Part shown: positions 35,565 through 38,439 of the stretch, one piece after another | Layout: each line of letters starts with the position of its first letter | Numbering within the stretch: the stretch's first letter is position 1 | Assembly: GCA_022567555.1 (NCBI GenBank) | Contig: JADFGT010000010.1 | Span: forward strand, 1 to 46,683 | Length of the DNA: 46,683 bases | Direction of reading: 5' to 3' | DNA from: Armatimonadota bacterium | GTDB taxonomy: Bacteria; Armatimonadota; Fimbriimonadia; Fimbriimonadales; ATM1 | Position numbers and translations under genes: made by a program | Notes under the pieces: generated by a model | Database searches by the model: none | Seen by the model: only the letters and a program-made list of their open reading frames with translations | What the model was told of the DNA's origin: nothing

Positions 35565-35589
35565 CCCTCAACACGTGCCGTGTTGAGGG
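35565..35589. repeat. REP palindrome, left flank of RAYT
   Basis: CCCTCAACACG and CGTGTTGAGGG pair across TGC. The outer side carries TTTAAACT, which matches the reverse complement of the outer edge of the right-flank REP. The RAYT ATG follows 16 bases later. Confidence 0.85.
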
Positions 35590-35605
35590 TAATCTGCGAC
35601 TCCGG

Positions 35606-36160
35606 ATGCCCGCCTACAAGCATTACAAGAATATGGTCGAAGCGCGCGCGACGGGCTTCTTCACCACCACATGCCTCGACTTCAATCACGCGCTCGCGCG
35701 CCCCGCCATTCGTGACGTTATGTGCATAAGGCTCTGCGACGATTCTGTCTATTACGGCGCGCTCCTCCACGCGTTCGCGGTCATGAGCAACCACATCCAC
35801 CTCATAGCCACTATGCCGGATGACCTCGACGGGAGCGCGTTCATCAAACGGATCAAAGAGCGCAGCGCAAAACAGATTCTCCCCATATTGAACGAAGTAG
35901 AGCGGAGCGGATTCGACGGTCAGCGCGGACTGAATCAACGCAAGTTCTGGCAGGTGAGTTTCGATAGTTTCCCGATTGAGAGCCAGAGGGCGTTGCTCCA
36001 GAAGCTGGAGTATGTACACAACAACCCGGTGGAGGCGGGGCTGTGTGAGCGAGCAAAGGATTACCGGTGGTCGAGCGCGCAGTTTCACTCGCAAGGTCTG
36101 TGGGGTCCCGACCGTGGCGTCGCAGCGGTTGCGTTGCGGCTCTATCGGAGGACGACGTGA
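35606..36160 (+). CDS. REP-associated tyrosine transposase (RAYT, Y1_Tnp)
   Basis: RAYTs are single-copy HUH-type tyrosine enzymes that cut REP hairpins. The 184 residues show the HUH motif MSNHIHLIA with His63 and His65, the catalytic-tyrosine helix KLEYVHNNPVEAGL with Tyr136, and the trailing DYRWSSA typical of the TnpA-REP group. All catalytic residues are intact. The reading frame extends upstream through the left REP, but the ATG after that REP gives the normal size. The gene is bracketed by inverted REP palindromes at 35565 and 36162, which is the recognised RAYT-REP layout, and sits between the flagellar operon and a GIY-YIG gene. It may be the source of the nearby REP copies. Confidence 0.92.
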   Translation: MPAYKHYKNMVEARATGFFTTTCLDFNHALARPAIRDVMCIRLCDDSVYYGALLHAFAVMSNHIHLIATMPDDLDGSAFIKRIKERSAKQILPILNEVERSGFDGQRGLNQRKFWQVSFDSFPIESQRALLQKLEYVHNNPVEAGLCERAKDYRWSSAQFHSQGLWGPDRGVAAVALRLYRRTT

Positions 36161-36161
36161 A

Positions 36162-36192
36162 CCCTCAACACGGCGCGTGTTGAGGGAGTTAA
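36162..36192. repeat. REP palindrome, right flank of RAYT
   Basis: CCCTCAACACG and CGTGTTGAGGG pair across GCG, then GAGTTAA continues outward. It begins two bases after the RAYT stop codon and is the inverted partner of the left REP. Confidence 0.85.
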
Positions 36193-37028: not shown

Positions 37029-38243
37029 GTGGCCGATGATCGTGTGCAAATGCGCGTACTGCTCGTCTCGCTCCTGAATTGGAGAACCAGCGCCAGGCTG
37101 CCCAGGGCCCTGCACGACGCAGGGATTCGGGCCGGCGCGCTTTCCGTGCCGGGCGGCATTCTCTTCGCAACGCGGTGCACGCACCCGCGATTCACGTTCC
37201 GATCATGGTCGGCGCCCGAAATAACCGAGGCGCTATGTGCCGCGGTTGCCTCATTGAAACCGCAACTTCTCATCCCGTGTGACGATGAGACGGTTCACTA
37301 TCTCGAGCGGCTGGTTCAATACTCGCAAGATGGGCGGGTCACCGGCCTGCCCCGTGAACTTATCAACGTTATAAGGTCCTCTTTGTGCGCTCCCAACTAC
37401 TACGATACGCTATACAGGAAAAGCGCACTGCTGCGCGTGGCGGACGGGGCCGGGCTGCGAACTCCTGTGCAGGCGTGCATAGACTGCTTGGACGACGGCA
37501 GGCGAGCGGCCGGCAATGCGACGTATCCCGTTGTCTTCAAACCAGATTGCGGCGTCGCCGGAAGCGGGGTCTCGATTTGCAGGACGAAGGACGAACTGAA
37601 CGCCGTTATGGCAAATCATTTCCGTCCACGCGACGCGGGGTCAAAGACTGCAGGCAGTACAGTACAGGCTGATCATCGGGGGGCATGCATCCAGCAATTC
37701 ATCCCCGGCAAGACTTCAGCATACTGTTTCGTAGCGCGCGACGGCCGGGTGCTCGCGGGGTTCGTTGCCGTAAAGGAACTGGTTCATCCCGATCCCACGG
37801 GATCCGCGACTGTGGTCAGTTTCGCGAGATCCGACGAGATAGAACAGATGTCAAGAAGACTCGTATCGGTCGTCGGCTATAACGGATTCGGCGCAGTGGA
37901 TTTTCGGGTAGATCAGAACACCGGTGTGCCGCATCTGATAGAGTTCAACGCCTGCCCGGTCCAAGTTACGCACCTGGGCAGGCGTATCGGCGTAGACTTG
38001 TGCGCGGCGCTATTCGATCACATGAACGGCCGGGAACCTCGGAGTGAGCACGCTCTTAAGACCGAAGAGACGGTTTGTTCCCTCAACACGCCGCGCGTTG
38101 AGCGAGTTAACACCGAAGAGAAGGTCGCGCTCTTTCCGCAAGAATGGCATCGCGACCCCCATAGTCCGAATATACAGTCGTTGTACCATGACATACCATC
38201 GGACGAACCCGAACTCGTTCTGGCGCTGAAGGCCGCAAGGTGA
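37029..38243 (+). CDS. ATP-grasp enzyme with a REP palindrome inside its frame
   Basis: The product has 404 residues; GTG start after GGAG, with an ATG 21 bases downstream as alternative. The central ATP-grasp fold shows LLIPCDDETVHYLERL, PVVFKPDCGVAGSGVSIC (ATP-lid lysine and glycine loop), CIQQFIPGKTSAY and the metal site GAVDFRVDQNTGVPHLIEFNAC, close to carbamoyl-phosphate synthetase-like and D-Ala-D-Ala-ligase-like members. The ligase substrate is unknown. Near residue 350 the frame reads TEETVCSLNTPRVERVNTEE: the middle is a REP palindrome that was inserted without breaking the frame, and TEE occurs on both sides. After it, VALFPQEWHRDPHS continues as an ordinary conserved-looking C-terminus. 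A solo REP follows the stop by 15 bases. Confidence 0.8.
   Translation: MADDRVQMRVLLVSLLNWRTSARLPRALHDAGIRAGALSVPGGILFATRCTHPRFTFRSWSAPEITEALCAAVASLKPQLLIPCDDETVHYLERLVQYSQDGRVTGLPRELINVIRSSLCAPNYYDTLYRKSALLRVADGAGLRTPVQACIDCLDDGRRAAGNATYPVVFKPDCGVAGSGVSICRTKDELNAVMANHFRPRDAGSKTAGSTVQADHRGACIQQFIPGKTSAYCFVARDGRVLAGFVAVKELVHPDPTGSATVVSFARSDEIEQMSRRLVSVVGYNGFGAVDFRVDQNTGVPHLIEFNACPVQVTHLGRRIGVDLCAALFDHMNGREPRSEHALKTEETVCSLNTPRVERVNTEEKVALFPQEWHRDPHSPNIQSLYHDIPSDEPELVLALKAAR
38061..38121. repeat. REP inserted in ATP-grasp gene, flanked by 10-bp direct repeats
   Basis: ACCGAAGAGA occurs at 38061-38070 and again at 38112-38121, 51 bases apart (17 codons). Between them lies a REP whose left arm is CCCTCAACACG and whose right arm CGCGTTGAGCGAGTTAAC has two mismatches to the standard arm. 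Confidence 0.75.
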
Positions 38244-38257
38244 GAGATGCGTTCTTC

Positions 38258-38290
38258 AACTCCCTCAACACGCCGCGTGTTGAGGGAGTT
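38258..38290. repeat. Solo REP palindrome
   Basis: AACTCCCTCAACACG and CGTGTTGAGGGAGTT form a perfect 15-bp stem with loop CCG. Both sides carry the AACTC/GAGTT extension, unlike the RAYT-flanking copies, which have it only on the outer side. Confidence 0.8.
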
Positions 38291-38317
38291 AACTCACACT
38301 TGTAATCCCTTTGTAAT

Positions 38318-38342
38318 CCCTAAACAATGTCATTGTTTAGGG
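38318..38342. repeat. Palindrome, REP-like architecture
   Basis: CCCTAAACAATG and CATTGTTTAGGG form a 12-bp stem with a single T between. The outer CCCT/AGGG and the central ACA-TGT core resemble the REP, but the sequence differs. A repeated TTGTAATCCC word (38300 and 38311) precedes it. Confidence 0.6.
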
Positions 38343-38371
38343 TATCTCTCCGCGACCGGCGCAACGGCACG

Positions 38372-38392
38372 CTCGACATTGAGAATGTCGAG
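38372..38392. repeat. Palindrome with CTCGACATT arms
   Basis: CTCGACATT and AATGTCGAG pair across GAG. It lies 26 bases after the previous palindrome. An A-run follows on the forward strand, so the T-run of the reverse strand precedes the hairpin and it is not a standard terminator. Confidence 0.6.
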
Positions 38393-38439
38393 GGATTGAA
38401 AAAAAAGAAGAAGGGCGGGCGGACTCCCGGCCTAACTAT

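Follow-up and report, generated by a model that had tools for sequence, protein, structure and literature searches.

A gene of the ATP-grasp family in the draft genome of an Armatimonadota bacterium (2.95 Mb in 179 contigs, 91.5% complete) carries a REP palindrome between two copies of a 10-bp sequence, and its reading frame runs through all three. The locus raises the question of whether a REP inserted here, duplicated its target in doing so, and became coding sequence. We examined the whole stretch of 46,683 nucleotides that carries the gene (the window), the remainder of the genome, and genomes of relatives.

An in-frame REP in an ATP-grasp gene

The features at the site are as follows.

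37029–38243, + strand: ATP-grasp family gene carrying the REP insertion (ORF of 404 aa with a GTG start, supported by Pfam and an AlphaFold model)
38061–38070, + strand: left copy of the direct repeat ACCGAAGAGA, extending imperfectly as 38056–38074 (17/19)
38071–38111, + strand: inserted REP element, a match to a 47-copy family and missing from all ATP-grasp homologues
38112–38121, + strand: right copy of ACCGAAGAGA, extending as 38107–38125; homologues L036 and L037 have one equivalent site
38256–38292, no strand: intergenic REP just after the gene (core 38264–38284, 0 mismatches to the consensus over 33 bp)

The gene product scores above the Pfam cut-off for both CPSase_L_D2 and ATP-grasp_3, and the AlphaFold model of the 404-aa protein has a pTM of 0.84. 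Within the inserted element the order is CGG, a left shoulder TTTGTTCC, the core palindrome CTCAACACGCCGCGCGTTGAG at 38082–38102, a right shoulder CGAGTTAA, and C. The core has 1 mismatch to the family consensus; with its shoulders the element has 5 differences from the 33-bp consensus and is therefore an older copy. Palindrome matches at up to three mismatches number four in the window and 0 in 100 dinucleotide shuffles of it. A preliminary description of this DNA had placed the REP in frame between two ACCGAAGAGA copies 51 bp apart, adding 17 codons and leaving the C-terminus in frame. The coordinates and the ORF bear this out: the copies are spaced 51 bp start to start, the insert measures 41 bp (51 bp counting one repeat copy), and the translation reads TEE-TVCSLNTPRVERVN-TEE before continuing in frame to the C-terminus VALFPQEWHRDP. 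In the AlphaFold model the inserted residues 345–361 sit in a low-confidence loop (339–360) just ahead of a strand.

Exact 10-mer repeats alone are not rare in the window, with 14 matching positions at periods of 30–100 bp. At the level of at least 17/19, the pair 38056–38074/38107–38125 is the only direct repeat at those periods in the 46.7 kb. We also considered whether ACCGAAGAGA belongs to another dispersed repeat and rejected this, with 25 near matches genome-wide against 12 for a reversed-pattern control (about twofold), two of the 25 being the copies described here.

The empty site was read from the closest homologues, at only 28–36% identity; these came from the same order, plus one Gloeobacterales and one Acidobacteria MAG. 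In the alignment all of them lack 17–19 residues exactly at the REP position, and the sequence that follows the insert is native (TEEKVALFPQEWHRDP, compared with TENDVIALFPQEWHRDP in L037 and LEETLVTFFPQEWHRDP in L036). Removal of 17 aa (51 bp, one repeat plus the element) brings the protein to within about 1 aa of homologue lengths. Because the homologues lack these residues and the removal restores the ancestral length, the segment is, judged from these alignments, a true insertion. The preliminary description had proposed just such a comparison of orthologues, in which a TEE…TEE of the same length would have marked the REP match as coincidence. No homologue has one, and its proposal that a REP was inserted and converted into coding sequence is upheld by the homologues that lack the segment.

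The REP family and its candidate transposase

A 21-bp family core searched with up to three mismatches gave 47 matches in the genome and 0 for a reversed-pattern control. Aligned copies yield a consensus palindrome of about 37 bp, TTAACTCC-CTCAACACGCnGCGTGTTGAG-GGAGTTAA, with near-perfect symmetry. An unpaired GTAG or CGTC tetranucleotide tag at one end was not seen in the aligned flanks, where the symmetric TTAACTCC/GGAGTTAA shoulders stand instead. The family has the form known for RAYT-associated REPs, a dispersed palindrome of about 20–40 bp in many copies. From 40 relatives the family is essentially absent: the sister genus G001 gave two diverged, RAYT-associated matches, and three other relatives gave one chance-like match each.

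Elsewhere in the window, family palindromes flank a transposase gene.

35567–35587, no strand: REP palindrome upstream of the transposase gene (family match)
35606–36160, + strand: RAYT-like Y1 (HUH) transposase gene (Pfam Y1_Tnp, 9.1e-9), with REPs at both ends
36164–36184, no strand: REP palindrome downstream of the transposase gene (family match)

This arrangement (35567–36184) recurs on contig C89, where a second unit (156–773) has flanking REPs and a protein 88.5% identical, and decayed units are present on contigs C13, C31, and C49. In the sister genus G001 a 43%-identical transposase lies near variant palindromes (CTCAACCCG...CGGGTTGAG), and the differences in enzyme and palindrome look like co-variation. 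The transposase at 35606–36160 is the likely mobiliser of this REP family.

Several further repeats were noted in passing. Right after the ATP-grasp stop, at 38258–38400, three different palindromes lie in a row: the REP, CCCTAAACAATG/CATTGTTTAGGG, and CTCGACATT/AATGTCGAG. A second palindrome family, CYTCAACAATnnnATTGTTGARG, has many copies genome-wide (e.g., at L001:1555 and L107–L115), one of which is translated inside hyuA adjoining a REP; neither direct repeats nor a transposase were seen for it. The sequence GAATCTGTCCACGANCGGCC is common to the window at about 36788 and to L065 at about 220, and is possibly another dispersed repeat. The REP at L051:1501 is flanked by two stretches resembling tRNA genes.

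REPs in frame in other genes

Seven further genes contain a REP in frame: those for transketolase, DnaE, hydantoinase/oxoprolinase A (HyuA), M61 peptidase, Ppx/GppA, UbiA, and ADP-ribosylglycohydrolase. Pfam domains lie around or beside the REP in all seven ORFs, bringing in-frame insertions, of the kind that defines the Rickettsia elements, to eight unrelated conserved genes. Two of the three frames serve, SLNTPRVE in 5/8 genes and TPSTRGVLRE in 3/8, and the third frame has stops. In each of the four genes that we compared with relatives of the same family and order the insert was missing there: from 10/10 for transketolase, 12/12 for DnaE, 10/10 for M61 peptidase, and 8/8 for HyuA. The REP in DnaE falls in a variable linker, where one of the relatives carries its own, unrelated insert. 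For transketolase and Ppx, comparison with PDB homologues gives the same gaps at the REP.

At L005 and L015 the ORFs that span the REP have no Pfam match and were dismissed as spurious; the REP at L050, crossed by long ORFs, was judged intergenic by reading. In metE (L053:1501) a REP supplies the last codons and the stop. Genic elements amount to 8 of about 34, a count that excludes those tied to the transposase. Coding sequence makes up most of a bacterial genome, so this proportion would represent a depletion, such as the loss of most genic insertions would produce.

Direct repeats at other copies

For 33 elements we set the left flank against the right, absorbing adjacent half-REPs and scoring ungapped repeats near the element. 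These tests were devised after the first cases had been seen, and their numbers are a guide and not a clean p-value. Scores of at least 10 occurred in 3/33 elements, against an expectation of 0.06 (permuted flanks) to 0.40 (random sites), and both expectations drop when closer contact is required. Flush direct repeats are above chance at 3–4 of 33 elements, with 0.1–0.7 expected. The three highest-scoring elements are the ATP-grasp copy (15/17 in that scoring), L043 (13/14), and L050 (31/44), with the M61 repeat (11/14) next. At L043:1414–1575 a cluster of three palindromes lies inside the 14-bp repeat, as if inserted as one unit. At L050:1449–1576 the imperfect repeat, 44 bp long and flush on both sides of an apparently intergenic REP, is far longer than usual target duplications.

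Empty-site lengths can be set beside these repeats in other genes. Excision by the M61 direct repeat (AGACGC...) removes 75 bp and gives the ancestral length, as does removal of 45 bp by the transketolase repeat GATCC, a 5-bp repeat that is not significant alone. The HyuA repeat reaches 13/15 when the first palindrome is taken alone; it and the transketolase repeat are weaker, and consistent with empty-site lengths. No recognisable duplication was found at most of the 33 elements, including the in-frame copies in ppx and ubiA. An earlier result of ours, with exact matches in 30-bp flanks, had singled out the ATP-grasp copy as the sole one with a repeat. It did not survive lighter masking and boundaries that took account of clusters; strict masking of 6-mers resembling the REP had hidden repeats, GGAGTT being one of the REP's own 6-mers.

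On this sequence evidence, a minority of copies have a real duplication, and its length varies from 5 to about 44 bp. IS200/IS605 family transposases are not known to make larger target duplications (PMC2817692); most copies here agree with that, and a minority do not. Because the lengths vary and most copies are without a repeat, the duplication is not a fixed transposase signature.

How the insertion may have arisen

We consider it probable that a non-autonomous, RAYT-associated palindromic element of about 37 bp inserted into the loop-coding part of the ATP-grasp gene. To the preliminary description the site looked like an insertion that had made a target duplication. In favour of this are the unique 17/19 repeat flush with the element, the single site in homologues, and the few other copies that behave alike; against it, most family copies are without a duplication. 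We infer both that a RAYT moved this REP and that the duplication dates from that same event. Most probably, single-stranded REP DNA would have joined the target at one end, with the other end sealed after target bases had been re-copied, via re-annealing at the TTAA common to the REP end and the target, or after a staggered break had been filled in. Either route would leave duplications of variable length. In the ATP-grasp copy, one case only, four bases at the start of the duplicated stretch are common to the REP end TTAA and the target TTAAGACC, which fits re-annealing. The 41-bp element alone is not a multiple of three, and 10 duplicated target bases bring the addition to 51 bp and keep the frame. 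A REP of this family could be translated in either of two open frames, and survival within genes would select events of a total length divisible by three that fall in linkers. We suggest tentatively, and with some doubt, that the REP insertion route (e.g., one-ended RAYT joining, then microhomology-primed re-copying) generates duplications of variable length, aiding frame restoration and persistence as coding sequence.

The direct repeat might instead be independent of transposition, a small tandem duplication by replication slippage before or after the REP inserted, perhaps provoked by the hairpin. Hairpins promote slippage, and repeats that range from 5 to 44 bp and are missing at most copies look unlike the work of a transposase. 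We nevertheless regard this as unlikely, given that the transketolase, M61, and ATP-grasp homologues have only one copy and that the repeats are flush with the element at several loci. It is very improbable that a DDE transposase making a fixed target duplication moved the element as a MITE. A palindrome with terminal inverted repeats and direct repeats has that look, but a fixed-length duplication at most copies was not found (clear cases number 3–4 of 33, at 5–44 bp) and a Y1 transposase gene lies between these same palindromes. That the palindrome is a coincidence within a native TEE…TEE protein sequence is scarcely credible: TEE repeats come easily in acidic linkers, but the shuffled windows gave no match, the homologues refute it by lacking the segment, and the same family lies in frame in other genes.

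Relation to known systems

Our preferred reading, insertion of a RAYT-associated REP, places the family beside described systems. In RAYT/REP units, or REPtrons, a Y1 transposase gene lies between two REPs, with non-autonomous REPs dispersed elsewhere (PMC2817692, PMC8266576). The present arrangement fits the RAYT/REP organisation (PMC2817692) save for the missing GTAG/CGTC tag. It differs from REPtrons in having several transposase units or remnants where they have a single one, and in the flush direct repeats at some dispersed copies. The dissemination of REPs has been described as unresolved (PMC8266576), and a limited search of the open-access literature turned up no account of REPs with target duplications.

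Intragenic GTAG/CGTC REPs occur in many species, including in dnaE and dnaE2 (BMC Genomics 2013, PMC3733652). Like the present family, they are short, mostly intergenic palindromes, of which some are translated, in frame, as part of unrelated genes (DNA polymerase genes among them), and GTAG families flank Y1 transposase genes; unlike them, the family here has neither tag and is a near-perfect symmetric palindrome of 37 bp. A text search of PMC3733652 found no mention of duplication, direct repeats, or an empty site. In-frame palindromic elements are also established in Rickettsia and Wolbachia (PMC2229807, PMC10969869, PMC3767692). The Rickettsia palindromic elements (RPE; Ogata et al. 2000; PMC2229807, PMC10969869) likewise lie in frame in many unrelated conserved genes that remain intact. 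They differ in length (105–146 bp, against about 37 bp, or 37–41 bp, here, well short of the about 105–150 bp of RPE-1-type elements), and their target duplication is marked "?" in Table 1 of PMC2229807. The present element, moreover, belongs to a genome unrelated to theirs and has a candidate transposase adjacent to it.

The preliminary description saw a REP converted into coding sequence. That part is not new, since translated REPs and REP-like palindromes had already been reported (PMC3733652, PMC2229807); a REP turned coding sequence is a further case of an established phenomenon, and the less expected part is the variable target duplications beside a Y1-type system. Insertions in conserved genes offer empty sites that can be read from homologues, which intergenic REPs rarely do. 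With eight genic sites and a candidate transposase in one genome, insertion endpoints and duplications become measurable. A genome unrelated to Rickettsia now joins those in which protein sequence has come from palindromes, in this instance in dnaE and transketolase.
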